Assembly (NCBI RefSeq): GCF_016907315.1
Contig: NZ_JAFBBS010000001.1
Span: forward strand, 1,488,001-1,552,000
Source of the DNA: Microbacterium esteraromaticum
Lineage (GTDB): Bacteria > Actinomycetota > Actinomycetes > Actinomycetales > Microbacteriaceae
Direction of reading: 5' to 3'
Length of the DNA stretch: 64,000 bases
Within the stretch, counting starts at the first letter, position 1, and each line of letters opens with the position of its first letter. This document shows positions 3,167-36,709 of the stretch, piece by piece. The notes below the pieces were generated by a model, which was given only the letters and a program-made list of their open reading frames with translations, was not told the origin of the DNA and searched no databases. The position numbers were made by a program, and so were the translations under genes.

Positions 3167-3202
3167 TTCCGAATATCGAACGCAAGCTTCCATATCATGA
3201 AA
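3167..3202. promoter_or_regulatory. Operator pair for the purine regulon (pair 1)
   Basis: Two 15-bp palindromic sites lie 21 bp apart: TTCCGAATATCGAAC at 3167-3181 and TTCCATATCATGAAA at 3188-3202. The second fits TTYCR-N5-YGRAA fully and the first misses one position. On the minus strand they sit upstream of the 8-oxoguanine deaminase/permease operon, next to a weak -10-like CAATCT (3203-3208). Confidence 0.65.
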
Positions 3203-3254
3203 AGATTGCGAGCGTCGGCCGGTGTGTGCCATCCGTGAGCGGGAGGACCATCGG

Positions 3255-3260
3255 TAGCGT
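3255..3260 (+). promoter_or_regulatory. Putative -10 box for a leaderless transcript
   Basis: TAGCGT lies seven bases before GTG 3268, the same geometry as five other genes in this window whose start codon would be the first transcribed base. Confidence 0.5.
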
Positions 3261-3267
3261 GGGGCCT

Positions 3268-4833
3268 GTGAACGCCCATCCGCCTGCCGACGCCGCCGCC
3301 TCGCGTGACCTGCGCCTCCAGCGTGAGATGAACACCGCGATCACCAAGGGACGTCGGGCCGTCGTGGTCTCGGCCTTTGGAGCCGCTTTCTTCTCCTCGG
3401 TTCTCGCCTACCTCGCGGTGACCCTACTCGATCCGCCCGCTGTCGACTTCGGCAGGACGCTCGAAGGCCTGCACCGAGACCTCGTAGGTCAGCTCGCCGA
3501 CGGCACCCAGCCTCACGACATCGATCCCGACGCCCGAATCTACGGGTTTCTGGCTGTCTTCGCCGCCATCGCGATCGCTCTCGCGGTAGCCCTCGACGCG
3601 ACAGGACGCCGGCTCCACGCCCTCGACGAGAGCCGGCCGACGGGGAGGCCCTTCTGGGAGAACGAGTTCACGGCCTACTCCGCGTGGGCCCAGGCGGGCG
3701 CGGCCTTTCGCGTGCTCACGTTCATCGAGCTGCTGGTCCTGAGCGCAGTCACCGGCCTTTCAGCGCTCGTCGCGCTCTCTCTCAGCGTCGGCGGAGCAGG
3801 GCGTCTGCCTGCACTCACCGCGTGGCTGCTGACAGCGCTGCTGCTTCTCGAGGCGACCCGAGGCTTCTACGTCTGGCTCGTTGCGAGCGATCTGAAGACC
3901 GTGCCCGATGCGGCCGAGCTGCAGCGACGCGTGGAGGAGCTTCGGCGCCCCGCTCTCCGTCGACGCGTTCGCCGGCTGACGACTAGCGCGCTTCTGCTCG
4001 TCTCTCTACTCGTCCTCGCGGTGTCTTCGTGGAGCACGGTCGGGCCGGCGGCGGCCGGCCCGATCATCGGCGCCGTCATCCTGTCCGCAGCGGTGTGGCT
4101 CGGAAGCCGCGCGATCGCCCGCGGCGCGGTTCTCGAGTGGGGAGCGACCCGCATGACCACGGTGGCGATGGCGTCGATCCTGGCGGCCCTCTTTCTGCTC
4201 TTCTTCGCGCTGACCCTCGTCGCCGAGATGGCCGCTGCCATGTCGGCGGGGCGTGCCGCGTCCGACACGCCACTCTGGTGGGCGCTGGGCGCGGTCGTGG
4301 GCCTCACGACGGCGGGAATCGCCGGGGTGCTCGACGCAGGCGGCGTCTTCCCGCGATCATCCTCCGCTCTGGACTGGCAGACCTCAGCGCCGCTGTCTCA
4401 GCCGCACCCCCAGACGCCCAGGCGCAGCGTGGGCCTGCTCGCGCTCATCACGTTCGCAGGAGGCCTTGCCCTCGCCGACGGCCCGTCGGATCTGGGACCC
4501 GCGCTCATCGTCAGCGCGACGGTCGTCACGGTGGTCTCGCTGCTGCACTGCGCCAGTGGCCGCACGCGATTCATGCTGAACCTCGGCGTCACCACGGTTC
4601 TCGCCGCCATACTGGCCCATCGACTCGGCGAAGCCGACACGGTGCATGCGTTTCTCGCCATCCTGCTGTTCGCTGTGGTGCTGATCGCGAATCTCGCGTC
4701 GACTCGCACGCGCACCACCGCGGCCTTCTCCGTTCTCACCCCGGTCGCAGAGGGAATCCGGCGAAGGCGGCTCAAGGCGTGGGAGGCGCGTCTCGCAGCG
4801 GTGGGGATCACCGCGCCGACGCCCGTCGACTGA
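3268..4833 (+). CDS. Polytopic membrane protein of unknown function
   Basis: I do not recognise a family. The 521-residue product has a short charged N-terminus, then a hydrophobic segment at about residues 30-52, a loop with an acidic stretch, and roughly ten further hydrophobic segments in two blocks separated by a basic linker near residues 210-235. The C-terminus is basic and cytoplasmic-looking. GTG 3268 is chosen because a -10 box sits seven bases upstream; a start at 3226 would lie upstream of the transcript start predicted from that -10 box. It stands alone between the divergent deaminase operon and convergent clpB. No purine operator faces it closely. Confidence 0.7.
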   Translation: MNAHPPADAAASRDLRLQREMNTAITKGRRAVVVSAFGAAFFSSVLAYLAVTLLDPPAVDFGRTLEGLHRDLVGQLADGTQPHDIDPDARIYGFLAVFAAIAIALAVALDATGRRLHALDESRPTGRPFWENEFTAYSAWAQAGAAFRVLTFIELLVLSAVTGLSALVALSLSVGGAGRLPALTAWLLTALLLLEATRGFYVWLVASDLKTVPDAAELQRRVEELRRPALRRRVRRLTTSALLLVSLLVLAVSSWSTVGPAAAGPIIGAVILSAAVWLGSRAIARGAVLEWGATRMTTVAMASILAALFLLFFALTLVAEMAAAMSAGRAASDTPLWWALGAVVGLTTAGIAGVLDAGGVFPRSSSALDWQTSAPLSQPHPQTPRRSVGLLALITFAGGLALADGPSDLGPALIVSATVVTVVSLLHCASGRTRFMLNLGVTTVLAAILAHRLGEADTVHAFLAILLFAVVLIANLASTRTRTTAAFSVLTPVAEGIRRRRLKAWEARLAAVGITAPTPVD

Positions 4834-4890
4834 CGCGGTGAAGGGCGGCCAGCCCTCCACAGCCCGGCCGACGGACGTCGGGTGGGCGGT

Positions 4891-7044
<2,154 letters not shown>

Positions 7045-7071
7045 TCGTCCTCCTGCGGAGACTCCTTCAAA

Positions 7072-7092
7072 GTTGAGTGTTGATGACTCAAG
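7072..7092. promoter_or_regulatory. HAIR operator (HspR binding site) of clpB
   Basis: GTTGAGT-N7-ACTCAAG matches the HAIR consensus CTTGAGT-N7-ACTCAAG at 13 of 14 defined positions. It overlaps the -10 box, so bound HspR would block RNA polymerase. Confidence 0.9.
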
Positions 7093-7119
7093 TTTACGTC
7101 GAGAGGCGAATCACGGCAA
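7091..7119 (-). promoter_or_regulatory. Vegetative promoter of clpB
   Basis: On the minus strand TTGCCG (7114-7119), a 17-bp spacer and TAAACT (7091-7096). The -10 box runs directly into the HAIR element, the same layout as at dnaK. Confidence 0.75.
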
Positions 7120-7277
7120 CCCAGTGACATTCTTCACCTGCTGACCGCCCCCATCAGCAGCACGGCCGCAGCCGATCCTGACGACTGTTCATGCCATCTG
7201 AACAGCGTTTCAGCCAGAATGCAGGGGATTCACCCCACTCCGCGTCACGAATCGGAGCGCGCCCACTCTCTTCAGAT

Positions 7278-7679
7278 ATGGGAGCGATTCAGCGCGTTGA
7301 CGACACGACACACCCCGAGACCACTGGGGGGCCGCTGGGCAGCGACATCTACCGGGACCTGCTTCGGGGCAGCGCCGACGGCGCGCTGCTGCACCGCCAC
7401 ACCTGGGAGATCCTGAACACCATGGTCGAGCGTGAGCTGCAGCAGCCCGAACCGCCGACCGAGGAATCACTGTTCGCGGCGAGCACCATCGGCGGGCCGC
7501 TGCGCGCCCGTCGCTTCCGCCGTCGCCTCGACCACCTCGTCCGCCTGGGACTCGCTCAGCGCCAGGAGCGCTGGGTGCGGCCGACCGTCGCCGGAGTCGC
7601 CGCCGTGCGCCCGCTGTGGTCGCAGGTCGACGGCCCCGTGCGCACGAAGCTCCGCTCCCTCATGCCCGACGACGCCTGA
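7278..7679 (+). CDS. Small protein, possibly winged-helix, unknown role
   Basis: Family not recognised. From ATG 7278 the product has 133 residues. The C-terminal half contains a basic helical run (RARRFRRRLDHLVRLGLA) followed by QERWVRPTVAGV, which looks like a recognition helix and wing of a winged-helix fold, so DNA binding is possible. No clear ribosome binding site is visible and the frame stays open upstream to 7191, so the start is uncertain. It lies between the divergent clpB promoter and the purine-regulated promoter at 7719. Confidence 0.6.
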   Translation: MGAIQRVDDTTHPETTGGPLGSDIYRDLLRGSADGALLHRHTWEILNTMVERELQQPEPPTEESLFAASTIGGPLRARRFRRRLDHLVRLGLAQRQERWVRPTVAGVAAVRPLWSQVDGPVRTKLRSLMPDDA

Positions 7680-7718
7680 ACTGCCGCCACCCGCTCACCC
7701 GCGACGCCTCACGGGTGC

Positions 7719-7784
7719 TTGACCGCCTCCCGGCACCCCGCGTACACTGACCGGTGATCAGAAAGAAGTTTCCGAATCCTGGAA
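7719..7784 (+). promoter_or_regulatory. Promoter with purine operator pair 2
   Basis: TTGACC (7719-7724), an 18-bp spacer and TACACT (7743-7748) form a good promoter. The operator pair begins at the next base: a weak site GACCGGTGATCAGAA (7749-7763) and, 21 bp on, a strong site TTCCGAATCCTGGAA (7770-7784). It drives a 25-codon ORF and may read on into xdhA. Confidence 0.65.
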
Positions 7785-7840
7785 CTCGCAGACGATTCGG
7801 AATACAGCGAAGACTGGACTCAGTGAAGAGAGGGGCCGTG

Positions 7841-7918
7841 ATGCACGTCGACGTTCACGCCACCGCCCCCTCCGAGAGTGCCACCGCATGGGGGAACTGG
7901 TACGCCCACGGCGCCTGA
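7841..7918 (+). CDS. 25-residue small ORF behind a purine-regulated promoter
   Basis: ATG 7841 is preceded by the purine-rich run GAAGAGAGGGG ending six bases before the start, a strong ribosome binding site. The peptide begins MHVDVHATAPSE and ends in a Trp/Tyr-rich stretch (AWGNWYAHGA). It has no recognisable domain. It lies between an operator-controlled promoter and a hairpin, 197 bp before xdhA. It could be a leader peptide affecting xdh expression or a free small protein. There is no homology evidence; reality rests on promoter, Shine-Dalgarno and hairpin. Confidence 0.5.
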   Translation: MHVDVHATAPSESATAWGNWYAHGA

Positions 7919-7930
7919 GTCGCCGCCTAC

Positions 7931-7953
7931 GGAATCGCCTTCATCACGATTCC
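7931..7953 (+). terminator. Hairpin after the 25-codon ORF
   Basis: GGAATCG and CGATTCC pair around a 9-base loop, 12 bases after the small ORF stop. There is no T-run, so it may be a weak terminator or attenuator rather than a full stop. Confidence 0.4.
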
Positions 7954-7976
7954 GAGGCCTCGCCATCGGTTCGCAC

Positions 7977-7982
7977 TAGACT
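7977..7982 (+). promoter_or_regulatory. Possible -10 box of a second xdhA promoter
   Basis: TAGACT lies about 130 bp before the xdhA start. No convincing -35 box is seen. Transcription from here would begin just before the structured leader at 8020-8110. Confidence 0.35.
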
Positions 7983-8019
7983 CACGGCAACCGCGCGCGA
8001 CGTCGCCATGTGATCGCCC

Positions 8020-8110
8020 GGTGCGAGCGCAGTGCGGCGCTCACCCCTCGGGATCTCAGCAGGCACGCGAGCAGCGTGCGCAGAGACGCCTCCGCGTCAT
8101 ACCCGAGGAG
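8020..8110 (+). ncRNA. Structured xdhA leader: candidate cis-regulatory three-way junction
   Basis: A hairpin (8020-8045, core GAGCGC/GCGCTC) is followed by a closing stem P1 (8046-8052 with 8102-8108, CCTCGGG/CCCGAGG). Inside P1 are two hairpins: P2 GCACGC/GCGTGC (8063-8068 with 8074-8079) and P3 GACGC/GCGTC (8085-8089 with 8094-8098). The xdhA Shine-Dalgarno GAGGAG (8105-8110) overlaps the 3' strand of P1, so folding would hide it. The layout resembles translation-controlling riboswitches, but it does not match the purine or Moco consensus I know. High GC content makes chance pairing possible. Confidence 0.45.
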
Positions 8111-8115
8111 AGACA

Positions 8116-11960
<3,845 letters not shown>

Positions 11961-11961
11961 C

Positions 11962-12783: not shown

Positions 12784-12799
12784 TCCACTCCTTATATAT

Positions 12800-12846
12800 A
12801 GAGAGAGGAACCCCGACCCGCTGAGCGGGTCGGGGTTCCTCTCTCT
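12800..12846. terminator. Strong bidirectional terminator
   Basis: Perfect 22-bp arms (12800-12821 and 12825-12846) around a TGA loop, with AG-rich and CT-rich flanks that give a T-containing tail in either direction. It lies between convergent xdhC and the NCS2 permease gene. Confidence 0.9.
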
Positions 12847-12857
12847 GGGCGTTGGAC

Positions 12858-14378: not shown

Positions 14379-14437
14379 GGCGATAGTGCTCTCTGTCGGG
14401 TGGAGAGGGATGGGTGGACGAGCGGTCGCTCGAGCGT

Positions 14438-14501: not shown

Positions 14502-14508
14502 GGAGTGC

Positions 14509-15184: not shown

Positions 15185-15220
15185 CAGCTTCGTGTGAAAG
15201 TTTGTTTTCACCATGTGGTA
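15185..15220. promoter_or_regulatory. Possible operator pair 3, between guaD and moaA
   Basis: A strong site TTTCACCATGTGGTA (15206-15220, nine of ten positions) has a much weaker partner at exactly 21 bp, CAGCTTCGTGTGAAA (15185-15199), in which only the TGAAA half is good. It lies in the divergent guaD/moaA gap and touches the moaA -10 box, so it could control both genes. Confidence 0.45.
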
Positions 15221-15224: not shown

Positions 15225-15230
15225 GGCTCC

Positions 15231-18335: not shown

Positions 18336-18421
18336 TTGCGCATCGTGGAAGGCTATTGACTCTTCGGTGACCCCGTGCGTACTCTTTTCATACAGCAAGA
18401 CGATTCTTCCACTTTATGGAA
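18336..18421 (+). promoter_or_regulatory. Promoter with purine operator pair 4 plus an upstream site
   Basis: TTGACT (18356-18361), 18-bp spacer and TACTCT (18380-18385). The operator pair starts at the next base: a half-good TTTCATACAGCAAGA (18386-18400) and a perfect palindrome TTCCACTTTATGGAA (18407-18421), 21 bp apart. A further site TTGCGCATCGTGGAA (18336-18350) sits just upstream of the -35 box. This is the most elaborate control region of the set, yet it serves a 48-codon gene. Confidence 0.7.
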
Positions 18422-18439: not shown

Positions 18440-18586
18440 ATGAGCGCACACGCGATCGAGGCGAACGGGTACGTCCCGTCCGCAGAGAACCCGTCGGTCA
18501 ACATCGACCCCGACTTCCACCTGCCGGCCGACGAGGGCAACGGCTTCATCCGCGCATTCCGCATCCTCTTCCCGAAGGCGGCCTGA
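18440..18586 (+). CDS. 48-residue small protein under purine-type control
   Basis: Not recognised. ATG 18440 follows GGAGAGGG with good spacing. The peptide is acidic in the middle (NIDPDFHLPADEGN) and ends in a basic-aromatic segment (FIRAFRILFPKAA) that could form an amphipathic helix; there is no signal peptide or membrane span. It has its own operator-controlled promoter and its own terminator 15 bp after the stop, so it is a complete monocistronic unit. Codon use is like its neighbours. It might be a small regulator or a partner of a purine enzyme; no function is shown by sequence alone. Confidence 0.7.
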   Translation: MSAHAIEANGYVPSAENPSVNIDPDFHLPADEGNGFIRAFRILFPKAA

Positions 18587-23360: not shown

Positions 23361-23372
23361 GATCATCCTTGA

Positions 23373-23437
23373 TTTCGGATTACGGAATAAAAGTTCCTAG
23401 TGATGAAAGCGTAGGACGGGCATGAGCACCCTGTCAA
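23373..23437 (-). promoter_or_regulatory. hyi operon promoter with operator pair 5
   Basis: On the minus strand TTGACA (23432-23437), 18-bp spacer and TACGCT (23408-23413), followed directly by the pair. The plus-strand sites are TTTCGGATTACGGAA (23373-23387, full match) and TTCCTAGTGATGAAA (23394-23408, nine of ten), 21 bp apart. Bound repressor would cover the transcription start. Confidence 0.75.
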
Positions 23438-23502
23438 CGAAGGGCGGCCCGCATTCCAGCATCCGGAACGCACTGCGGGGAGAGACGTTTCATGGGCACA
23501 TT

Positions 23503-23538
23503 TTCCGCACTGCGGATATCAGCTTCTTCATTGCGGAA
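23503..23538 (+). promoter_or_regulatory. Operator pair 6 upstream of the MFS transporter
   Basis: TTCCGCACTGCGGAT (23503-23517, nine of ten) and TTCTTCATTGCGGAA (23524-23538, one good half) are 21 bp apart, preceded by a weak -10-like CACATT (23497-23502). The start codon follows at 23629. Confidence 0.6.
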
Positions 23539-25008: not shown

Positions 25009-25010
25009 GC

Positions 25011-25068: not shown

Positions 25069-25073
25069 AGCAC

Positions 25074-25110: not shown

Positions 25111-25120
25111 AGACGATGCG

Positions 25121-25930: not shown

Positions 25931-27195
25931 CAGGCCTCCTTGGTGGCGAGTTTGGGATGGGCGAGGCGGGTGAGCTCTGCGGGCGAGGCGCCGGTCGAGG
26001 TGCGCACCTCGTCTTCGGTGAGCGCACCGCATTCCAGGCCGCGCACGACGAATCGTGCGAGCGCGCGTGCGGTGGCCGGCTCATCCATGATGGTCGCGTC
26101 GTTGCCGTGCAGGTAGTTGTCGAGTCGGCGTGCGGCCGCCTCAAAGCCCTCGCGGTAGAACGCGTAGGTGGCCAGGTACCGGGTCGGCAGCTGGTTGGCG
26201 TGCAGATCCCAGCCCTGGTAGTAGCCGCGCTCGAGCGAGCGCCGCACCAGACGGGCGTGCAGCTTCCAGGCATCCTGGGCCTTCTCACCCACCGGGATGA
26301 CGTTGGTCGACCCGTCCGAGAGGCGCACTCCGGTCTCGGCGACCGCGACCTGCATGACCTGCTTGGCGTAGTCGGCGGCCGGGTGCTCCATCGACTGGTA
26401 CGCCGCGGCGATCTGCAGCGAAGCGCTGTAGTCGTAGGTGCCGTAGTGCAGGGCCGACACGCGACCCTGCCCGCTGTGCAGCAGCGTCGCGACCGGGATG
26501 GTGCCGTCGGCCGCGACGATGAGCTGCGGCGTCTCCATCTGCACCTCGAAGCGCAGACGGCCCGGTGCCAGGCCCAGGCGCTCTTCGAAGCGCTCGCAGA
26601 GCGCCACCATCGCCTCGACCTGCGCGACGGTGGTCACCTTGGGCAGGGTGAGGATCAGCCCGTCGGGCAGCTCGCCGGCGGCGGCGAGCGTCGTGACGAA
26701 CCGGTCGAGGGTGCGGATGCCGCGGCGCCGGGTCGGCGCCTCGAAGCACTTGAACCGGATGCCGATGAACGGCGTCGCCGTGCCTGCGGCGACCGCCTCT
26801 GCGACGCGCTCGGCGGCGAGGACGGCAGCGGCATCCTCTTCGTCGTCGCCGCGAGTGCCGTAGCCGTCCTCGAAGTCGAGTCGCAGATCTTCTATGGGCT
26901 CCCGACGCAGCTTGGCGTCCACCAGCGGCGCGAGCTGATCGGCGAGGTGCCCCAGTCCGACCGACTCGGCGAGCTCCGCCATGCCGCCGGCCGCATCGAC
27001 GGCGTCGAGGGCCTCCGCGCCGAAGCGCGCGGGCAGAGCGGGGTCGAAGCGGTCGGCGGGCACGTACAGCGTGTGCACCGGCTGGCGACTGCCGTCGTCA
27101 CCCGGGTACGAGTTCGTGAGCAGGGCGTCGGTCTGCGCCAGACGCGAATCGATGTCGGCGAAGTCGTCTTCGCGCAGGGATGTATTGGCTGACAC
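25930..27195 (-). CDS. DUF6986 protein, aldolase/malate-synthase-like TIM barrel
   Basis: A 421-residue protein of the actinobacterial DUF6986 type, resembling HpcH/CitE and malate synthase barrels. Candidate acidic metal ligands are in DLRLDFEDGYG (about residue 88) and FEVQMETPQLI (about residue 215); FKCFEAPTRRRGIRTLD, GYYQGWDLHANQLPTRY and SALHYGTYDYS are further conserved-looking blocks. GTG 27195 fits a GGAG overlapping the end of the malic enzyme gene. Position between malic enzyme and ureidoglycine aminohydrolase suggests it condenses or cleaves a glyoxylate-derived acid, possibly making malate from glyoxylate and acetyl-CoA. That role is inference. Confidence 0.75.
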   Translation of the reverse strand: MSANTSLREDDFADIDSRLAQTDALLTNSYPGDDGSRQPVHTLYVPADRFDPALPARFGAEALDAVDAAGGMAELAESVGLGHLADQLAPLVDAKLRREPIEDLRLDFEDGYGTRGDDEEDAAAVLAAERVAEAVAAGTATPFIGIRFKCFEAPTRRRGIRTLDRFVTTLAAAGELPDGLILTLPKVTTVAQVEAMVALCERFEERLGLAPGRLRFEVQMETPQLIVAADGTIPVATLLHSGQGRVSALHYGTYDYSASLQIAAAYQSMEHPAADYAKQVMQVAVAETGVRLSDGSTNVIPVGEKAQDAWKLHARLVRRSLERGYYQGWDLHANQLPTRYLATYAFYREGFEAAARRLDNYLHGNDATIMDEPATARALARFVVRGLECGALTEDEVRTSTGASPAELTRLAHPKLATKEA

Positions 27196-27200
27196 TCCGG

Positions 27201-28595
27201 TCACTCCTTCTCTGCGGCCTTGACGACGCGGACGATCGCCTCTGCCACCGCTCCGGCGACCTCGGGGTCGAAGACGCTGGGGATGATGAAGCTCGCGTTG
27301 CGCTCTTCGTCGTCGACGCGCGATGCGATGGCCTCGGCGGCTGCGACCAGCATAGGCGGGGTGATGTCGGACACACCCGCGTCGAGCAGGCCGCGGAAGA
27401 AGCCGGGGAAGGCCAGCACGTTGTTGATCTGATTGGGGAAGTCGCTGCGACCGGTGGCGACGACGGCGGCGTGCTTGGAAGCAACGACCGGGTCGACCTC
27501 GGGAGTGGGGTTGGCCATCGCGAAGACGATCGCGTCGTCTGCCATGGCGGCGATGTCGTTCTCGTCGAGCACGTTCGGCGCGCTGACGCCGATGAAGACG
27601 TCTGCGCCCACCATGGCCTCCTTGAGGGTGCCCGTGAAGTTGCGCGGGTTCGTGTTCGCCGCGAGCTCGACACGGTGCGCGTCGGTGTACTCCTCGTCGC
27701 GGTTGATGGCGCCGTTGCGACCGCAGGCGACGATGTCCTTCGCGCCCTGCTCGAGCAGCAGCTGGGCGATCGCGTTGCCGGCCGCTCCGACACCGGAGAG
27801 CACGATGCGCACGTCTTCGATCTTCTTGCCGACGACCTTCAGAGCGTTGACGAGCGCGGCGAGGGTGACGATCGCCGTGCCGTGCTGGTCGTCGTGGAAG
27901 ACGGGGATGTCGAGCTCTTCGCGCAGTCGCGCCTCGATCTCGAAGCAGCGGGGAGCGGCGATGTCCTCGAGGTTCACGCCGCCGTAGACGGGGGCGATCG
28001 CCTTCACGATCTTGATGATCTCCTCGGTGTCCTTGGTGTCGAGGCAGACCGGCCACGCGTCGACGTTGGCGAACTGCTTGAACAGCGCCGCCTTGCCCTC
28101 CATCACGGGCAGAGCGGCCTCGGGGCCGATGTCGCCGAGGCCGAGCACGGCGGTGCCGTCGGTGACGACGGCGACGGTGTTGCGCTTGACGGTGAGGTTG
28201 CGCGCCTTGCTCTTGTCTTCGGCGATGGCCATGCAGACGCGGGCGACACCGGGCGTGTAGGCGCGCGAGAGGTCGTCGCGGTTGCGCAGCGGGACGCTGG
28301 GCACGACTTCGAGCTTGCCGCCGAGGTGCATGAGGAAGGTGCGGTCGCTGACCTGGCGCACGTGCACGCCCTCGAGCGCCTGCACCGCGTCGCGGATGCG
28401 CGAGGCGTGGTCGTCGTCGATGGTGTTGCAGGTGAGGTCGACGACGATCGAGGTCGGGTGCGACTCGACCACGTCGAGCGCGGTGATGGCAGCGCCGGCG
28501 GATGCCGCGGCTGCGGCGAGCTCGCTGGTGACGCTGAAGTTGGAGGGAGCGTCGATACGAAGTGTGATCGAGTTACCGGGACCGGGATTGGCCAT
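27201..28595 (-). CDS. NAD(P)-dependent malic enzyme with N-terminal ACT-like domain
   Basis: Decarboxylates malate to pyruvate. The first about 85 residues form an ACT-like regulatory domain ([11 protein letters not shown] then [16 protein letters not shown]). The malic enzyme core follows: [28 protein letters not shown], catalytic Lys in [11 protein letters not shown], metal site [11 protein letters not shown] and the dinucleotide motif [14 protein letters not shown]. 464 residues. It leads the operon malic enzyme - DUF6986 - allE and is preceded by operator pair 7. NAD versus NADP preference is not visible. Confidence 0.9.
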
Positions 28596-28665
28596 GTTTC
28601 CTCTTCCCTGAGGTGTGCCGCACGCCTCTGCGCCGACTCACGTGAGCTGATGGACTTCTTCGTGC

Positions 28666-28713
28666 TTTCGCATCGTGGAGACTATTGTCTATCTTACGAA
28701 AGTTCGATGCAAT
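28666..28713. promoter_or_regulatory. Divergent promoters with operator pair 7 (malic enzyme / iclR)
   Basis: Sites TTTCGCATCGTGGAG (28666-28680) and GTCTATCTTACGAAA (28687-28701) are 21 bp apart. Leftward promoter: TTGCAT (28707-28712 on the minus strand), 17 bp, GACAAT (28684-28689). Rightward promoter: TTGTCT (28685-28690), 17 bp, TGCAAT (28708-28713). One pair would therefore cover both, implying autoregulation. An extra single site TCTCGCATGATGGAA lies at 28751-28765. Confidence 0.6.
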
Positions 28714-28790
28714 CAACGATGATGGATGCGCCAGGATTTTCGCTCACACTTCTCGCATGATGGAATCATCTCGGTACCTAGGAGGACCTG

Positions 28791-29558
28791 ATGGCCGAAA
28801 GCAAGACTCCGCGCGGCAGCGGATCAGGAGTGCAGTCCGTCGAGCGCGTGTTCGAACTGCTCGAGCTGGTGACCGATGCCGGCGGTGACGTGACCCTGAG
28901 CGAGCTCGCATCGTCGACCGATCTCCCGCTCCCGACGATCCACCGCCTGCTGCGCACGCTCGTCTCGCTCGGCTACGCGCGCCAGCTGCCGAACCGCCGC
29001 TACGCGCTGGGGCCACGGCTGATCCGCATCGGAGAGGGTGCGTCCCGGCAGTTCGGCGCGCTGGCCCGACCGCAGTTGAAGGGTCTGGTCGACCAGCTCG
29101 GCGAGAGCGCGAACATGGCCGTGCTCGACGGCAACATGGTCGTGTACGTCGCCCAGGTGCCCTCGCTGCACTCGATGCGCATGTTCACCGAGGTCGGCCG
29201 CCGAGCGCACACCCACGACACCGGTGTCGGCAAGGCGATCCTGGCGCAGCTGCCCGACGACACCGTCCGCAGCATCGTCACGCGCGCCGGCATGCCCACC
29301 CCGACCGAGTTCAGCATCGGCGACGTCGATGCCCTGATCGCCGAGCTCGACCGCATCCGCGAGCGCGGCTACGCGATCGACGATCAGGAGCAGGAGATCG
29401 GCGTGCGCTGCTTCTCGATGGCCGTTCCCGATGCGCCCACTCCGACCGCCGTCTCGGTTTCGGGCCCCATCTCACGCGTCGACGAGGCATTCGGCGAGCG
29501 CGCCGTGCCCATGCTCCGCAAGGCCGCCGAGGCGATCAGCGCCGAACTGGTCTCCTGA
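28791..29558 (+). CDS. IclR-family transcriptional regulator, likely controller of the purine/glyoxylate genes
   Basis: 255 residues: an N-terminal winged helix-turn-helix (VQSVERVFELLELV, then LSELASSTDLPLPTIHRLLR, about residues 12-55) and a C-terminal IclR effector domain (LKGLVDQLGESANMAVLDG, HTHDTGVGKAILAQLP and a late GIRCFS-like GVRCFSMAVPD). IclR proteins such as AllR sense glyoxylate or allantoin-pathway metabolites. It is the only IclR gene in the window and is divergent from the glyoxylate-handling operon, with an operator pair between. I infer it binds the TTYCR-N5-YGRAA sites. ATG 28791 has AGGAGG with good spacing. Confidence 0.88.
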   Translation: MAESKTPRGSGSGVQSVERVFELLELVTDAGGDVTLSELASSTDLPLPTIHRLLRTLVSLGYARQLPNRRYALGPRLIRIGEGASRQFGALARPQLKGLVDQLGESANMAVLDGNMVVYVAQVPSLHSMRMFTEVGRRAHTHDTGVGKAILAQLPDDTVRSIVTRAGMPTPTEFSIGDVDALIAELDRIRERGYAIDDQEQEIGVRCFSMAVPDAPTPTAVSVSGPISRVDEAFGERAVPMLRKAAEAISAELVS

Positions 29559-29582
29559 CAGCCCGAGCGCCGCATGCAGAGA

Positions 29583-29613
29583 GAGGCCCGGATGCGATGC
29601 ATCCGGCCCTCTT
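29583..29613. terminator. Hairpin between iclR and aceE
   Basis: AGAGGCCCGGATGC pairs imperfectly with GCATCCGGCCCTCT; the following TCTT gives a short T-rich tail. It separates the convergent iclR and aceE genes. Confidence 0.7.
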
Positions 29614-29631
29614 GGCGTCTCGTGACGAGGA

Positions 29632-32358
29632 TCAGGCGTCGCCGCCCGCGTTTCCGCTCGTCCCGGCGTTCACGTCGTGCAGGCGGTAGCGCTCGGCGGC
29701 CTGAGCGGGAGCCGCGGCATCGACCTCTCCCCTGGCGGCGAGCAGCTGCAGCGCGCGCACCACGACCGAGTGCGAATCGATCTTGAAGAAGCGGCGGGCG
29801 GCGGCTCGGGTGTCCGAGAAGCCGAAGCCGTCGGCGCCCAGCGTGGCCCAGTCGTTCTTCACGAACTGGCGGATCTGGTCTGGCAGGTCCTTCGCATAGT
29901 CGCTGACCGCCACGATGGGGCCGTGCGCGTCTGCCAGCTGCTGCCGCACGAACGGTGTGCGCACGCCGTTCTCTGGGTGCAGGAACGCCTCCTCCTCGGC
30001 ACGCACCGCGTCGCGGCGCAGCTCGGTCCACGAGGTGACCGAGAACACGTCGGCGGCCACCCCCCACCCGTCGCGCAGCAGCTGCTGCGCCTCGAGGGCC
30101 CAGGTGACGCCGATGCCTGACGCCAGCAAGTGCGTCCGTGGTCCCTCCCCCTGCGCGGGAGAGATGCGGTGGATGCCCCCGAGGATGCCCTCGACATCGA
30201 CCCCATCGGGCTCTGCAGGCTGCACGATCGGCTCGTTGTAGACCATGAGGTTGTAGATCCAGTTGCGATCGGTCGAGTCCTGGCCGTACATCCGCTCGAT
30301 GCCTGCGCGCATGATGTGACCGATCTCGTAGCCGTACGCCGGGTCGTAGGTGATCACGGCCGGGTTGGTGGCGGCGAGCAGCGGCGAGTGGCCGTCTGCG
30401 TGCTGCAGGCCCTCACCCGTCAGCGTGGTCCGACCCGCTGTCGCCGAGATGAGGAAGCCACGGGCCATCTGGTCGGCCGCGGCCCACAGCGAATCGCCCG
30501 TGCGCTGGAAGCCGAACATCGAGTAGAACACGTAGACCGGGATCAGCGGCACGCCGTGCGTGGCGTACGCGGTGCCGGCGGCGGTGAAGGCGGCGATCGA
30601 GCCCGCCTCGTTGATGCCGACGTGCACGATCTGCCCCGACGTCGACTCCTTGTACGAGAGCACGATGTCGCGGTCGACCGCGAGATAGTTCTGTCCGTTG
30701 GGGTTGTAGATCTTCGCGGTCGGGAAGAACGCGTCCATTCCGAAGGTGCGCGCCTCATCGGGGATGATCGGCACGATGCGCTTGCCGAACTCCTTGTCTC
30801 GCATGAGGTCCTTCAGCACGCGCACGAACGCCATGGTCGTCGCGGCCTCCTGCTTGCCGGAGCCTCGGGCGGCCACCTCGTAGGCCCTGGCATCGGGCAG
30901 TGTGATCTCGCCCGCCGCGTGGGGACGGCGTTCGGGCAGGTATCCGCCCAGCTCCCGGCGGCGCTCCTGCATGTACCGGATCTCCGGCGCATCGGCGCCC
31001 GGGTGGTAGTACGGCGGCTGATACGGGTCGGCTTCGAGCTGGGCATCCGTGATCGGCACACGCAGGTGATCGCGGAAGTCCTTCAGGTCCTGCAGCGTGA
31101 GCTTCTTCATCTGGTGGGTGGCGTTGCGCGCCTCGAAGCGCTGCCCGAGGCCGTAGCCCTTCACCGTCTTCACGAGGATGACAGTCGGCTTGCCGTTGCG
31201 CTGCATCGACTGCTGATACGCCGCGAACACCTTGTGATAGTCGTGGCCGCCGCGCTTCAGACCCCAGATCTCGTCGTCCGTGAGGTTCTCGACCAGGGCC
31301 GCCGCGCGCTCGTCGCGCCCGAAGAAGTTCTCGCGGATGAACCCGCCCGACTCCGCCTTGTACGTCTGGTAGTCGCCGTCGCGCGTGGTGTTCATGATGT
31401 CGACGAGCGCGCCGTCCTCGTCGCGGGCGAGCAGGTCGTCCCACTCCCGGCCCCAGATCACCTTGATGACGTTCCAGCCGGCACCGCGGAAGAAGCCCTC
31501 GAGCTCCTGGATGATCTTGCCGTTCCCTCGCACCGGACCGTCGAGACGCTGCAGGTTGCAGTTGACGACGAAGGTCAGGTTGTCGAGGCCGTCGTTGGCG
31601 GCGAGCTGCAGCAGGCCTCGCGACTCGGGTTCGTCCATCTCGCCGTCGCCGAGGAACGCCCAGACGTGCTGGTCACTCGTGTCCTTGAGGCCACGGCCCT
31701 GCAGGTAGCGGTTCGACTGCGCCTGGTAGATCGCGTTCATGGGACCGATGCCCATCGAGACGGTGGGGAACTCCCAGAACTCGGGCATGAGCCGCGGGTG
31801 CGGGTACGAGCTGAGCGCGTGCCCCTCGCGCGACTTCTCCTGACGGAAGCCGTCGAGGTCCTCTTCGCTCAGACGACCCTCCATGTACGCGCGGGCGTAC
31901 ATGCCCGGCGACGCGTGGCCCTGGAAGAAGACCTGATCGCCGCCGCCGGGGTGGTCCTTGCCGCGGAAGAAGTGGTTGAACCCGACCTCGTAGAGCGTCG
32001 CCGCGCCCGCGTAGGTCGAGATGTGGCCGCCGACGCCGATGCCGGGCCGCTGCGCGCGATGCACCAGCACGGCCGCATTCCAGCGCATCCACGCCCGGTA
32101 GCGGCGCTCGAGCTCTTCGTCGCCGGGGTACTCGGGCTCGTCGGCCGCGGCGATCGTGTTCACGTAGTCGGTGGTGGCGCTGGGTTCGTCGCGCAGGCCG
32201 GCGCGCTCGACCAGGCTGCGCACGAGGTGCTCGCCGCGGGCCGGGCCGCGCGCGCTCACGACGGCGTCGAGGGACTCGAGCCATTCGGCGGTCTCCTCCG
32301 GATCGATGTCGCCGGGGGCTGAGTCGAGGATGGATGCTGAGGCGCGATCGTCGTTCAC
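29632..32358 (-). CDS. aceE: Pyruvate dehydrogenase E1 component, homodimeric
   Basis: Thiamin-diphosphate enzyme that decarboxylates pyruvate for the pyruvate dehydrogenase complex. The 908-residue single-chain form is usual in actinobacteria. Landmarks are [20 protein letters not shown], quoted only as GGHISTYAG near residue 125, the ThDP motif [10 protein letters not shown] (about residue 240) and [20 protein letters not shown] 32358 follows AAGAAAGG. No E2 or E3 gene is nearby. It is next to the glyoxylate-to-pyruvate genes, though no purine-type operator is seen at its start. Confidence 0.95.
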
Positions 32359-32428
32359 TTTCGGCCTTTCTTGTTAGATGGAGTGAGGCTGCCGGTCAGG
32401 CAGGCGAACAGAAGCGGAAGGGGTGGCT

Positions 32429-33175
32429 GTGAGCGATCGCATCGCCGTCGTCACGGGTGCAGGTTCAGGGATCGGCCGGGCGGTCACCGTGGCGATGCTC
32501 GACGCCGGATTCAAGGTCGCCCTGGCGGGTCGACGGGCGGATGCCCTCGAGCAGACCGCGGCAGGGCATCCGGATGCCCTGGTCGTGCCGACCGACATCA
32601 CCATAGCGGCGGAGGTCGACGCGCTTTTCGAGCGGGTCGTGGCCGAGTGGGGCCGGGTGGACGTTCTGTTCAACAATGCCGGGGTGTTCGGCCCGGCCGC
32701 ATCGGCCGCCGAGATCGACCCCGAGGAGTTCACGCGCACGATCGAGGTGAACGTGACGGGCGCCCTGCTGTGCGCAGGTGCGGCGATGCGCACGATGATC
32801 GCGCAGCAGCCCTCGGGCGGACGCATCATCAACAACGGCTCGATCTCGGCGCAGGTGCCCCGCCCGCAATCGGTGGCCTACGCGGTCAGCAAGCATGCGA
32901 TCACGGGGCTGACCCGGTCGATCGACCTCGATGGCCGTCGCCACGGGATCAGCTGCGGCCAGATCGACATCGGCAACGCCGCCACGCAGATCATGTCGGA
33001 GATCGGCGTGGGCTCGGGCGCCCTGCAGGCAGACGGATCGCGCCTGGTCGAGCCGACCTTCGATGTGGCGGATGCCGCTCGGGCCGTGCTGTTCATGGCG
33101 CAGCTGCCCGCGGAGGCGAACATCACCTCGCTCACGGTGGCGGCTGCGGGCATGCCGTTCGGCGGCCGCGGCTGA
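32429..33175 (+). CDS. Short-chain dehydrogenase/reductase of unknown substrate
   Basis: A 248-residue classical SDR. It shows the cofactor motif TGAGSGIG (about residues 9-16), NNAG at about 88, a catalytic Ser in NNGSISAQV and YAVSK for the Tyr/Lys pair. An Arg at AGRRADA suggests NADP(H). GTG 32429 is chosen because GGAAGGGG lies five bases before it; a GTG at 32423 would overlap that site. It is divergent from aceE. Substrate cannot be read from sequence. Confidence 0.85.
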
Positions 33176-33196
33176 CCCTGCGCTGCGGTCCCGGAT

Positions 33197-33236
33197 GCCC
33201 CGAGGGCCCGTCGGCATGGCCGACGGGCCCCGGGGT
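33197..33236. terminator. Hairpin between the SDR and urate oxidase
   Basis: GGGCCCGTCGGC and GCCGACGGGCCC pair around ATG with further outer pairing (CCCCG/CGGGG). Shared by two convergent genes. Confidence 0.85.
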
Positions 33237-33264
33237 GCGCATGCGGTGATCGCCGGGCGCAGGA

Positions 33265-34158
33265 TCAGCAGAAGCCGGCGATGCCGTCCCACGACCAGTG
33301 GTCGGTGTCGGCGCCCTCGCGAAGGAACGACGCCTCGATGAGACCGTACGGGCGGTCGGCCGCGTAGAAGACCTCGTTGGGGTTCTCGAGACCGAACGGC
33401 GACAGGTCGACCACGAAGTGGTGGCTGTTCGGGGTCGAGAAGCGGATCTCGTCGATCTCGGGGTGTGCCTCGAGCACGGCCTCGGCCATCTCCTTCAGCG
33501 TGTGCTGCAGGGCGTACGAGTAGTTGCGCGAGAATCCCGCGAGCAGCAGGCGGCGGACGTCGGCGAAGACCTCGTTGTAGTCGAGGTCGTTGCGGTTGTA
33601 GCGCCACTTGGCGGTGACCGAGGTGGCGAGGATGCGGTCCTCGGTCTCGGGCAGCGTCGTGTACTTGTCCTTCGGGTAGCCGACGAAGCCGCTCTGGGTC
33701 GACTTCAGCACCTTGAGGTCCTGCAGGCCCGCGATCACGACCGTGTCGTCGCCGTCGATCTGCACGACGGACGTGCGGGTCTCGGTGCCCCCGCGCACGA
33801 ACGAGTGGTCGTGCTCGCCGTCGTCGCCCTGGATGCGCTGCCAGGTGTACTGCTCGGCCTCCCAGCGACCGCCGGTGATCCAGTCGAACTCACCCGTGAA
33901 GTGGCGGCCGAGGCGGAGCAGGAACTCCTCGGGGCTGCCGACGCCGTCCTTGGCGAAGGCGTACACCGTGTTCTTCTGCGTGTCGGTCGGGACGACGTGC
34001 TCGTTGTTGCCCTCGAAGTGGGCGCTGTCGAGGTCGCCCCGCAGCTGCGACGTGACGTTGAGGTCCTCGATCTCGTGACGTGCGGTGTCGCGCGTGACCC
34101 GGACGACTCGGACCTCGGCCTTGCCGTACTGGTTCTTGCCCAGAATGATGTTGGTCAT
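33265..34158 (-). CDS. uox: Urate oxidase (factor-independent uricase)
   Basis: Oxidises urate to 5-hydroxyisourate with O2, without cofactor. The 297-residue protein is a tandem T-fold. Landmarks are KAEVRVVRVTRD (Lys of the catalytic pair near residue 13), the motif VVPTDTQKNTVYAFAK (about residues 56-71, with the catalytic Thr), and the late NSHHFVVDLSPFG with the active-site His. Third gene of uraD-uraH-uox, nine bases after uraH. Hydrogen peroxide is a by-product; a peroxiredoxin gene sits just upstream of the operon. Confidence 0.95.
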   Translation of the reverse strand: MTNIILGKNQYGKAEVRVVRVTRDTARHEIEDLNVTSQLRGDLDSAHFEGNNEHVVPTDTQKNTVYAFAKDGVGSPEEFLLRLGRHFTGEFDWITGGRWEAEQYTWQRIQGDDGEHDHSFVRGGTETRTSVVQIDGDDTVVIAGLQDLKVLKSTQSGFVGYPKDKYTTLPETEDRILATSVTAKWRYNRNDLDYNEVFADVRRLLLAGFSRNYSYALQHTLKEMAEAVLEAHPEIDEIRFSTPNSHHFVVDLSPFGLENPNEVFYAADRPYGLIEASFLREGADTDHWSWDGIAGFC

Positions 34159-34167
34159 GATTTCTAC

Positions 34168-34509
34168 TCAGCTTCCTCGGTAAGTGGAATAGGCGAACGG
34201 GCTCAGCAGCAGCGGCACGTGATAGTGCGCCTGCTCAGCGTCGACCTGGAAGGTCAACACCACCTCCGGGAAGAAGGTGTCCGTGTCGATGCCGGCGAAG
34301 TAGGCCGCCGTGTCGAACCGGAGTCGGTACGCACCGCTCTCCAGCCGCTCGGGGCCCAGTTCTTTCACCCGCCCGTCAGCATCTGTGGATCCTGAGCCGA
34401 TCGCGACCCACTCGTCGCCCTGACGGGCTTCGAGCGCGACCGCGACGTCGGGCGCGGGGCGCCCGACCGAGGTGTCCAGGATGTGGGTGGTCACGTGGGA
34501 AACGCTCAT
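34168..34509 (-). CDS. uraH: 5-hydroxyisourate hydrolase
   Basis: Transthyretin-like hydrolase turning 5-hydroxyisourate into OHCU. The 113-residue protein has the family hallmarks: THILDTSVGRPAPDV at the N-terminus (active-site His), a central FDTAAYF and the C-terminal YRGS that distinguishes the enzyme from transthyretin. It is spaced 11 bp after uraD and 9 bp before urate oxidase. Confidence 0.95.
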   Translation of the reverse strand: MSVSHVTTHILDTSVGRPAPDVAVALEARQGDEWVAIGSGSTDADGRVKELGPERLESGAYRLRFDTAAYFAGIDTDTFFPEVVLTFQVDAEQAHYHVPLLLSPFAYSTYRGS

Positions 34510-34520
34510 GTCGCGCTCCT

Positions 34521-35009
34521 TCAGCTCTCGAGGGCTCCGGCCAGGCGCAGCGCCGCGATCTCGCGCAGCTGCTGGTCGACCACGACGAGCTCCTGTTCGG
34601 GGGTGTTGCCCAGCCGCTCCTGCAGCAGGGCGAGGATCTCTTCCGCCGAGCGTCCGGCGGCGCGCACCAGGTACACGCGGTCGAACCGCTGCTCATAGGC
34701 CTTGTTGCCCTCGGCGAGCCGCGCTGCGGTGTCGGCGTCGACGCCCGGCTGCTCCTTGCGTGAGAGCGCTGCCTCGGCGGTCTCGCCCTGGGGGCGCTCG
34801 CCGATACGAGGGTGGTGCGCCAGGGCGCCGTCGATCTCGGCCTCGGTGAGCGGGGCTGCGACGGTGGCGGCTGCGGCCGCGACCTCGTCGATGCTCTGGT
34901 ACGGCCGGCCGTCGATGATCCCATCGATCCAGCGAGCGATGTCGAGCGCCGGCTTCACGACGGCGACGGCTTCTTCGCGAGCGGCCACATTGAAGTTCTC
35001 GAGCAACAT
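34521..35009 (-). CDS. uraD: OHCU decarboxylase
   Basis: Decarboxylates 2-oxo-4-hydroxy-4-carboxy-5-ureidoimidazoline to (S)-allantoin. The 162-residue protein shows HPRIGE (active-site His, about residue 67), SRKEQPGVD and YEQRFDRVYLVRAAGRS, all typical of UraD. It is the first gene of the urate operon, right behind operator pair 8. ATG 35009 lies 80 bp downstream of the nearest operator base. Confidence 0.93.
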   Translation of the reverse strand: MLLENFNVAAREEAVAVVKPALDIARWIDGIIDGRPYQSIDEVAAAAATVAAPLTEAEIDGALAHHPRIGERPQGETAEAALSRKEQPGVDADTAARLAEGNKAYEQRFDRVYLVRAAGRSAEEILALLQERLGNTPEQELVVVDQQLREIAALRLAGALES

Positions 35010-35089
35010 CTTCGATCCTCAAGCAGATGCTGGCATCCGGCGCGAAGGCTATACGGAAACCCCTGACGGAGTCTTCACGAGAAGGTTAC

Positions 35090-35157
35090 TTCCGTATGCC
35101 GGAACTGTTATTTCAGCATGTGTAAGTATTGTGCGGGCCGCCGGAGTCGTTTGTCAA
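35090..35157 (-). promoter_or_regulatory. uraD operon promoter with operator pair 8
   Basis: On the minus strand TTGACA (35152-35157), 18-bp spacer and CACAAT (35128-35133). Downstream of the -10 lie TTTCAGCATGTGTAA (35111-35125, nine of ten) and the perfect palindrome TTCCGTATGCCGGAA (35090-35104), 21 bp apart. A single extra site TTTCACATTGTGGAG lies at 35174-35188, just past the end of the peroxiredoxin gene. Confidence 0.72.
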
Positions 35158-35172
35158 CATCCCCGGCGGCCC
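35135..35172. terminator. Hairpin between peroxiredoxin and uraD
   Basis: GGGCCGCCGG (35135-35144) pairs with CCGGCGGCCC (35163-35172). It can end peroxiredoxin transcription, although its loop also contains the -35 box of the uraD promoter. Confidence 0.6.
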
Positions 35173-35188
35173 TTTTCACATTGTGGAG

Positions 35189-35656
35189 TCAGACTCCGAG
35201 TTCTGCGCGCAGACGGGCCACGTGACCCTCTGCATCCACACCATATTCTGCCCGCTGCACGACGCCCTCGCCGTCGAGGACGAAGGTCGAGCGGATCACG
35301 CCCTCGAACGTGCGGTCGCCGACCGTCTTCTCGCCCCACACGCCCCACGCCTTGGCGACCGCGGCGTCCCTGTCGGCGAGCAGCGGGAAGGTGAGGTGCT
35401 CGGCTTCGGCGAACGATCGGATCTCCTCGACCGAGTCCGGCGAGACGCCGATGACCGCGTAGCCGGCGGCGTCGAGAGCCGAGAGGCTGTCGCGGAAGTC
35501 GCAGGCCTCGGTGGTGCAGCCGGGGGTGGCCGCCTTCGGGTAGAAGTAGACCACCACGTTGCGGCCCCGGTAGTCGGCGAGCGAGGTGGTGCGGCCCTCG
35601 GCGTCGGCGAGGGCGAAATCGGGCGCCGTGCTGCCGGCGGTGAGCTTGTCGGTCAT
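35189..35656 (-). CDS. bcp: Peroxiredoxin, Bcp/PrxQ type
   Basis: Thiol peroxidase of 155 residues. The peroxidatic Cys is in ATPGCTTEACDFRD (about residues 43-56); the second Cys four to five residues on is the PrxQ-type resolving Cys. It begins 45 bp after the HpcH/CitE-like gene and probably shares its transcript behind operator pair 9. That would place a peroxide scavenger in the same regulon as peroxide-producing urate oxidase. Confidence 0.9.
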   Translation of the reverse strand: MTDKLTAGSTAPDFALADAEGRTTSLADYRGRNVVVYFYPKAATPGCTTEACDFRDSLSALDAAGYAVIGVSPDSVEEIRSFAEAEHLTFPLLADRDAAVAKAWGVWGEKTVGDRTFEGVIRSTFVLDGEGVVQRAEYGVDAEGHVARLRAELGV

Positions 35657-35701
35657 GATGACTCCGTTCTGTTCGGGGATGGATGCTGGGTCGCGGCGCT
35701 G

Positions 35702-36559
35702 TCAGCGCGCGACGGGGAGCACGTCGAAGGCCTCGGCGAGCTGCATGATCTTGCGGGCCCGGCCGAGGCGGGGCAGATCGCTGCCGTCTCGCACGATCCG
35801 CCCGCGGGCGTCGAAGTCGGCGAGGAACTCGTGTGCCCACTCGACGTCGGTGCGGGTGGGGCTGATGACCTCGTTGACGACGGGGGCCTGGTCGGCCGAG
35901 AGGCAGAGCTTCCCGGTCATGCCCATCGAGACGGTGGTGGCCGACTGCTCGCGCAGGATGGGATGGCTCGATCCGACCGTGGGACCGTCGATCGGACCGG
36001 GCAGGCCGCCGACCCGGCTCGAGATGACCAGGCGGGCACGCGGATAGGCCATGGCCTCGCGATCGGCCGACATGCCCGTGTCGCGGCGGAAGTCACCGCT
36101 TCCGAAGGCGAGGCGGAACACGCCCTTGGCCCGGGCGATCTCACTGGCGTTCTCGATTCCGATGGCCGACTCGACCAGCGCCACGATCGGGACACGGGCG
36201 CCGAGACGGTTGTAGGTGTCCATGACCTGACCCCCGAGCTCGGTCTTGGCGAGCATCACGCCCTGCAGACCCGGCGCCGTGCGCAGCTCCTCGATGTCGT
36301 CGGCCCAGTAGTCGCTGCCGGCGTCGTTGATGCGCACCCAGGCACGACCGCCCTCGCTCAGCCATCGCACCACATCGGCGCGGGCCGACTCCTTCTTGCT
36401 GGCGTCAACGGCATCCTCGATGTCCAGCACGACGGCGTCGGCGTGCGAGGCCGCCGCGGCGTCGAAGGTCTCGGGACGCGTGGCAGCCACGAGCAGCCAC
36501 GAACGCGCGAGTTCGGGGGCGATCTCGCGTCGCGTAGTAGAGGTGAGTGAAGCGTTCAT
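35702..36559 (-). CDS. HpcH/CitE-like aldolase or CoA-ester lyase
   Basis: A 285-residue protein of the CitE/HpcH barrel family. Landmarks are SWLLVAATRPETFDAA at the N-terminus, ADAVVLDIEDAVDASKKE (Asp/Glu metal site, about residue 48), VRINDAG, VALVESAIGIENA (metal Glu) and FGSGDFRRDTG. The family cleaves or forms C-C bonds in malyl-CoA-like or hydroxyacid substrates. In this context a glyoxylate-related reaction is plausible but unproved. I chose ATG 36559; a TTG further upstream at 36574 would lie inside the operator. Confidence 0.75.
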   Translation of the reverse strand: MNASLTSTTRREIAPELARSWLLVAATRPETFDAAAASHADAVVLDIEDAVDASKKESARADVVRWLSEGGRAWVRINDAGSDYWADDIEELRTAPGLQGVMLAKTELGGQVMDTYNRLGARVPIVALVESAIGIENASEIARAKGVFRLAFGSGDFRRDTGMSADREAMAYPRARLVISSRVGGLPGPIDGPTVGSSHPILREQSATTVSMGMTGKLCLSADQAPVVNEVISPTRTDVEWAHEFLADFDARGRIVRDGSDLPRLGRARKIMQLAEAFDVLPVAR

Positions 36560-36564
36560 GCCAG

Positions 36565-36606
36565 TTCCGATCAACGAAAATCAAGTTCTGCTATACGAAA
36601 AGTCTA
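36565..36606 (-). promoter_or_regulatory. Operator pair 9 with a -10 box
   Basis: TTCCGATCAACGAAA (36565-36579, full match) and TTCTGCTATACGAAA (36586-36600, nine of ten) are 21 bp apart. On the minus strand the -10 box TAGACT (36601-36606) ends exactly where the pair begins. It would control the HpcH/CitE-like gene and bcp. Confidence 0.7.
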
Positions 36607-36645
36607 ACGCGAGGGGTCACCCCGCGCCACAGCCCCGGAGTCCAC

Positions 36646-36709
36646 TTGACAGGCGAGCCGCGCTGTGTTCGAATAACGTACTACGAAAGAATACTTTCGC
36701 AATACGAAA
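36646..36709 (+). promoter_or_regulatory. NCS1 permease promoter with operator pair 10
   Basis: TTGACA (36646-36651), 17-bp spacer and TCGAAT (36669-36674). The pair begins at the last -10 base: TAACGTACTACGAAA (36674-36688) and the full-match palindrome TTTCGCAATACGAAA (36695-36709), 21 bp apart. Confidence 0.75.

Follow-up and report, generated by a model that had tools for sequence, protein, structure and literature searches.

The stretch of DNA considered in this study, hereafter the window, comprises 64,000 nucleotides of the genome of Microbacterium esteraromaticum (assembly GCF_016907315.1, contig NZ_JAFBBS010000001.1, positions 1,488,001 to 1,552,000 of the forward strand), and positions are counted from its first base. 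It holds a gene for an IclR-family regulator (iclR, 28791-29558, plus strand) and, on both sides of it, genes for deaminating purines, oxidising xanthine and urate, degrading ureides, and using glyoxylate. A sequence-only reading of this DNA had described ten pairs of a 15-bp palindrome, TTYCR-N5-YGRAA, each with a 21-bp offset, and all ten are present, with site starts 21 bp apart. That reading had the pairs covering purine deamination, xanthine and urate oxidation, allantoin, and glyoxylate genes, an interpretation that is supported in part; nine pairs are well beyond chance, and the tenth, at moaA, is not. The pairs are very probably operators of an AllR-type repressor of purine and glyoxylate catabolism, the product of iclR, and a real regulon of an IclR-family regulator is well supported by the sequence comparisons presented here.

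Each site was scored for its match to TTYCR-N5-YGRAA (maximum 10), gene identities come from NCBIfam and Pfam family models, gene starts and operon extents are a reading of the open reading frames (ORFs), and promoters were predicted by eye. The first pair (3167-3202, minus strand, 9+10) is upstream of an 8-oxoguanine deaminase gene. The ORF of this gene extends to 3232, but a later start is assumed because the family match begins well inside it, at residue 78; the true start is probably 3031 or 3016. A poor -10-like box, CAATCT, abuts the pair on the minus strand, and a TTGACG element is found a short way downstream, towards the gene. The pair at 7749-7784 (plus, 7+10) is upstream of xdhA (8032-9600, plus) and is abutted by a predicted promoter (7719-7748, plus) with TTGACC at 7719-7724 and TACACT at 7743-7748. 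Between this operator and xdhA is a 25-residue ORF (7841-7918, plus), the DNA of which is largely conserved in two related loci (L182 and L183); it is possibly a leader peptide. The weak candidate at 15185-15220 (plus, 6+9) overlaps the listed start of moaA (15213). The pair at 18386-18421 (plus, 8+10) is conserved in two congeneric loci, L001 and L002, and has a predicted promoter at 18356-18385 (plus; TTGACT at 18356-18361, TACTCT at 18380-18385). A 48-residue ORF (18440-18586, plus) follows this pair directly, with length and stop identical in L001 and L002, and is a possible unannotated small protein of the regulon.

The genes for glyoxylate use, hyi-glxR-gcl-glxK (23366 to 18729, minus), have a pair at 23373-23408 (minus, 10+9), which overlaps by one base a predicted promoter at 23408-23437 (minus; TTGACA at 23437-23432, TACGCT at 23413-23408). 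A further pair at 23503-23538 (plus, 9+8), with no TTGAC box, is upstream of a gene for a major facilitator superfamily (MFS) transporter. The pair would fall inside the longest ORF of that gene, which starts at 23422, but the MFS domain is matched only from residue 105 of this ORF, and a later start, likely 23629, is assumed here as well. The pair at 28666-28701 (9+8), to which no strand is given, separates iclR from the oppositely oriented genes for malic enzyme, DUF6986, and ureidoglycine aminohydrolase. Upstream of uraD-hiuH-uox (35009 to 33265, minus) the pair at 35090-35125 (minus, 10+9) is near-identical in the 10 Microbacterium-type loci compared and is two bases from a predicted promoter at 35128-35157 (minus; TTGACA at 35157-35152, CACAAT at 35133-35128). 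The gene for an HpcH/HpaI aldolase-family (CitE-like) protein (36559 to 35702, minus) has a pair at 36565-36600 (minus, 10+9) with a predicted -10 box, TAGACT (36601-36606, minus), abutting it and no TTGAC box. The last pair (36674-36709, plus, 8+10) precedes the gene for an NCS1 allantoin-type permease (36775-38304, plus) and overlaps by one base a predicted promoter at 36646-36674 (plus; TTGACA at 36646-36651, TCGAAT at 36669-36674).

A pair was called strong when its summed score was at least 17 of 20, a threshold chosen by the analyst, and all pairs except 15185 reach it. The window has nine strong pairs at a spacing of 21 bp and zero to two at every other spacing from 8 to 60; in 100 dinucleotide shuffles of the window, spacing 21 yielded 0.05 strong pairs on average and never more than 1, and no spacing yielded more than 2. 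A scan with the pair pattern, allowing up to 3 mismatches, found 9 matches in the window against 0.02 expected. As a control, 20-kb stretches were taken from 20 spaced places in the same genome, together 400 kb out of 3.24 Mb; they have a single strong pair, at the start of a paralogous IclR gene. The nine pairs are far above chance, and the random genome-wide rate that the sequence-only reading had named as fatal to its claim was not found: pairs are rare in the sampled rest of the genome and concentrated in the window. A chance origin is rejected by the shuffles, by the 400-kb control, and by the genus-wide co-occurrence with iclR described below. The sites are palindromic and lie mostly between genes, as would parts of RNA hairpins or accidental matches in AT-rich intergenic DNA, but the spacing, the position relative to promoters, the polarity, and the co-occurrence with one regulator gene make such an explanation hardly credible. 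A match at 35111/35132 (9+7, spacing 21) was excluded as a weak third site. Lone sites scoring 9 to 10 of 10 are found near but outside the pairs at 23454, 28751, and 35174, the last exactly 4 x 21 bp from 35090.

The spacing was expected to be kept in related genomes, and it is retained at homologues of the window genes. The 80 loci around iclR orthologues (L001-L080) are the best 80 of 558 matches, in named records, and come from Microbacterium, Arthrobacter and relatives, Cryobacterium, Kocuria, Cellulosimicrobium, and others. These loci contain 211 strong pairs at 21 bp, distributed over 75 loci, along with 37 pairs at 20 bp and 27 at 22 bp, of which 61 of 64 overlap a 21-bp pair. In 41 loci retrieved by searches at family and class level (L119-L159), which include two from the genome of the window itself, 21-bp pairs number 50, and no other spacing between 17 and 26 has more than 4. 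Target genes were identified by tblastn, with 37 proteins of the window as queries and a maximum distance of 400 bp; in this way 193 of the 211 pairs could be placed near the start of a window-gene homologue, and a pair near the start of iclR was assigned in 68 of the 80 loci. Homologues of the neighbouring genes are expected because the loci surround the regulator; the informative part is the position of the pairs at gene starts. Conserved spacing might also arise if separate dimers bound independently and the 21 bp reflected descent from an ancestral promoter, not dimer contact; the loci are related and several promoter types are orthologous across genera. Against such descent, different promoters of a single genome share the 21 bp, as do promoters throughout the class, although the spacer sequence varies, and only 3 of the 64 pairs at 20 or 22 bp are free of overlap with a 21-bp pair, so that independent binding seems improbable. 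Overlapping 21-bp pairs, with sites at 0/21/42, were seen in L013, L022, L036, L038, L041, and L059, and at least some of these three-site rows lie upstream of the 8-oxoguanine deaminase gene.

For searches of complete genomes, a sequence-only operator model was built from 60 relatives' pairs; a model from the window's own ten pairs is circular for the window and was not used as evidence. A genome-wide scan with the relatives' model gave matches only at places in the window: at E <=10 it has 8 matches in the 3.24-Mb genome, all in the window, which cover 5 of the 10 pairs. The model is specific but not sensitive, missing five window pairs and the pair of the paralogue. Among 79 congeneric genomes, with an IclR gene called at E <=1e-90 and model matches at E <=0.5 with stricter filters, the gene is in 12 and model matches are in 14. 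Matches were found in 11 of the 12 gene-positive congeners versus 3 of the 67 gene-negative ones (Fisher p 5e-10), and 36 of 39 distinct model places in the gene-positive congeners are within 25 kb of the gene. Some congeners may be among the sources of the model; G304 and G396, the genomes of L001 and L002, are not. Of a further group of 16 selected genomes, 12 had model matches at E <=3, and the four without are congeners that have no IclR match at E <=1e-40. The link of the pairs to iclR is supported by this presence and absence across the genus, as well as by the conserved pair upstream of the gene.

Membership of the window protein in the IclR family is clear from its Pfam domains (HTH_IclR, PF09339, 8.3e-18; IclR_C, PF01614, 5.5e-37), and its closest named neighbours are from an Actinomycetales isolate (97% protein identity) and Microbacterium commune (95%). 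The nearest named models (BhcR, PcaR/PcaU type, IclR, KdgR, and AllR) all score below their cut-offs. The best NCBIfam match is BhcR (NF045644) with 183.2 bits, below the cut-off of 350; the Escherichia coli AllR equivalog (NF007548) gives 106.1 of 406 bits, and the E. coli IclR equivalog 144 of 380 bits. A list of glyoxylate- and pyruvate-binding residues was taken from PMC11323563, the protein was aligned to E. coli IclR, and the numbering was mapped by hand. Of the oxygen-binding residues of E. coli IclR, G160, D212, S239, and S241 are identical and A161 is replaced by V (this position is Ile in BhcR); in the hydrophobic patch that binds the methyl group, M146 is kept and L143, L154, and L220 are replaced by S, A, and V. 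This residue pattern fits a glyoxylate-type effector and is not proof of one.

The genome encodes six other IclR-like proteins. One of them, at locus L082 (G000:C1:1957643-1961371, gene at G000:C1:1959143), is a paralogue with 51% identity to the window protein; its gene is divergent from an HbpS-like gene and malate synthase G, and has a 7+10 pair with 21-bp spacing at or overlapping its own start. The five other IclR-like loci (L083-L087) have no pair of sum at least 15 at 21 bp. The paralogue, or both proteins, could bind the pairs, with the regulon shared or divided between them; the helix-turn-helix sequences are similar by eye, and the pair at the start of the paralogue's gene belongs to the same pattern. 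We regard this as rather unlikely, since the window gene lies inside the cluster, has a conserved pair upstream, and is tracked by the operators across the congeners, but the tracking covered the distribution of the window gene only and does not exclude sharing.

The position of the pairs relative to promoters was examined on 420 sides of 210 pairs from the 80 loci, one of the 211 having been dropped as too near the end of its locus. Of the 420 sides, 107 have a TTGAC box with its first base at -33 to -26 relative to the pair, and elsewhere between -45 and -16 such a box occurs only once; 100 of the 210 pairs have such a box on at least one side. In the class-level loci, 20 of 23 TTGAC occurrences are at -32 to -27. 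With a -35 box 26 to 33 bases before the pair, the -10 box abuts the pair, and the transcription start is therefore predicted to be inside the first site. The upstream peak of TANNNT is at the position abutting the pair (52 sides); a larger peak is at +11 (90 sides), inside the first site. By eye, the pairs at 7749, 18386, 23373, 36565, and 36674 start within one base of a -10 box, which agrees with the count of at least five given by the sequence-only reading. Its proposal of a roadblock at the start site is supported by position where a TTGAC box was found, and lacks support for the pairs at 28666 and 23503, which have no good abutting promoter.

The regulator might instead activate some of its targets, and PMC11323563 proposes a dual role of this kind for BhcR of Paracoccus. 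Activation of some targets could suit 3167 and 28666, neither of which has a good abutting promoter, and the TTGACG just downstream of the 3167 pair is suggestive in the same way. At 7749, 18386, 23373, 36565, and 36674, however, the pair starts at the -10 box and continues downstream, a placement in which bound protein should block transcription, and a mixed activator and repressor is judged quite unlikely.

The least expected point of the regulon, and one beyond the claims of the sequence-only reading, is the polarity of the pair. That reading had noted that one site is usually near perfect and the other has one good half, which is broadly right, but the difference has a direction. The count was limited to distinct pairs in which one side, and not the other, has a TTGAC box: 83 from L001-L080 (93 from 64 loci before identical pairs were removed, with 7 more having a box on both sides) and 20 from 35 class-level loci, ten of which were fetched by the operator model. 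The promoter-proximal site is lower-scoring in 79 of the 83, equal in 4, and higher in none, and is lower in 20 of the 20 class-level pairs; over the 103 pairs it is weaker in 99, equal in 4, and stronger in 0. Many of these promoters are orthologous, which means fewer independent cases. Position 12 of the pair, which belongs to the inner half of the proximal site, is A instead of G in 58 of 83 and 10 of 20 pairs; its counterpart in the distal site is G in 103 of 103. In the window the distal site scores 10 of 10 at 7749, 18386, 23373, 35090, 36565, and 36674. Overlap with the promoter could explain part of the weakness of the first half-site, but not obviously that of the second.

If the pairs are operators of the iclR product, each 15-bp palindrome would be bound by one dimer, and the two dimers, probably forming one tetramer, would sit side by side on one face of the DNA at a distance of 21 bp, about two helical turns. 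At most of these promoters, where the pair begins at the -10 box, the protein would cover the transcription start and block RNA polymerase; of the two sites, the downstream one is strong and the one at the promoter is held weaker. The complex would be loosened by a product of the pathway, with glyoxylate or an upstream ureide as the likeliest candidates, and the genes for purine deamination, the oxidation of xanthine and urate, the breakdown of ureides, and the use of glyoxylate would then be switched on jointly. A polar two-step switch, with the grammar TTGACA-N17/18-(-10 box)-weak site-N6-strong site, is put forward tentatively, as one way in which the polarity may work. The strong downstream dimer would stay bound and the weak site at the transcription start, with an inner half that is often YARAA for YGRAA, would be filled only through the tetramer; the effector would dissolve the tetramer, and the start site would empty first. 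If this is true, polarity sets the amount of effector needed at each promoter. The polarity also offers a handle on why IclR-family operators are tandem and on how DNA could read the oligomeric state of a protein.

Several observations weigh against the assignment of these pairs to the regulator encoded by iclR, or limit how the counts may be read. The moaA pair, with a sum of 15, is not beyond chance because 21 pairs of at least this sum occur in the 400-kb control; six closer moaA orthologues of the ten found were examined, and none has a similar pair at the same position (G375 has a 7+9 pair farther upstream). With a chance-level score and no conservation where examined, this pair was not accepted as a member of the regulon. 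The 60 pairs of the operator model come from neighbourhoods like those later searched, the loci are related so that counts are not independent, and 5 of the 80 loci have no pair of sum at least 17. No gene was assigned to 18 of the 211 pairs, and 110 of 210 have no TTGAC box on either side. Three congeners without the gene have one model match each, the gene-positive congener G394 has none, and in G121, from another family of the order, 3 of 6 distinct model places are on contigs without the gene. The 51% paralogue with its own 21-bp pair might bind some of the pairs. The xdhA pair is kept unevenly: among eight relatives with the gene there is a clear pair (sum 19) in two (G365 and G431) and a weak pair (sum 15) with an abutting promoter in G422, the two closest relatives have kept the promoter with no convincing pair, and three others have none.

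The motif, the spacing, and the type of regulon are already known. In their survey, Suvorova and Gelfand (2021, PMC8222616) give WTTYCRYW3RYGRAAW as the consensus of a subgroup of IclR-family group 1 and predict tandem palindromes 18-22 nt apart, mainly 19-21, or about two turns. The pairs described here share with this subgroup the half-sites, the 5-bp YWWWR-type spacer, and tandem palindromes about two turns apart; all ten, at 21 bp, fall within the range of distances between centres. When the columns of the 107 promoter-oriented sides were compared with that consensus, the WTT-11-AAW palindrome of the subgroup, WTTYCRYWWWRYGRAAW, was matched best by the distal site. Three features found here do not appear in the consulted sections of that survey: the spacing of 21 bp, the placement of the pair against the -10 box (wherever a TTGAC box was found), and the weaker proximal site. 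The E. coli motifs given there have another half-site arrangement. The proteins AllR and IclR of E. coli are of the same family by sequence and have allantoin or glyoxylate targets, and four of the five oxygen-binding residues of E. coli IclR are identical in the window protein, which falls below both equivalog cut-offs.

Orthologues about 60% identical to the window protein, with 21-bp pairs nearby, are found in class-level genomes of 5-11 Mb. Work by Navone from 2015 is said to have described AllR of Streptomyces coelicolor as an IclR-family repressor of allantoin-pathway genes, and the regulator proposed here would likewise be one; compared with the S. coelicolor regulon, the present one also holds 8-oxoguanine deaminase and xanthine dehydrogenase. 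Repression of allantoin genes by an S. coelicolor IclR-family homologue is mentioned in PMC12772271, where the wording is "biosynthesis." The E. coli IclR tetramer is stabilised by pyruvate and weakened by glyoxylate, according to PMC11323563. The operator complex of TtgV (2xro; Lu 2010, cited in PMC8222616) is cited as that of a tetrameric IclR-family protein on its operator, and TtgV matches the window protein in sequence but differs in target. No description of this regulon or of a polar tandem operator was found in the literature searched, which consisted of main texts in part, without supplements and most subscription papers. Relative to that literature, the additions are the gene set in the genus, the tight spacing, the promoter register, and the polarity. 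Together these give a candidate regulator, an operator grammar, and a set of genes for the catabolism of purines in Microbacterium and relatives, beginning with deamination and ending with the use of glyoxylate.

The regulon also links uncharacterised products, namely DUF6986, the CitE-like aldolase, and the 48-residue ORF, to purine or glyoxylate metabolism. A long ORF at 3226-4833 (plus) has no NCBIfam or Pfam match at the thresholds used and may not be a gene. In the minus-strand regions 26032-27198 and 29632-32358, DUF6986 is beside malic enzyme and a pyruvate dehydrogenase E1 gene is nearby. DUF6986 has a weak match to HpcH/HpaI aldolase, and a malate-synthase-like role in oxidising glyoxylate can be guessed for it.

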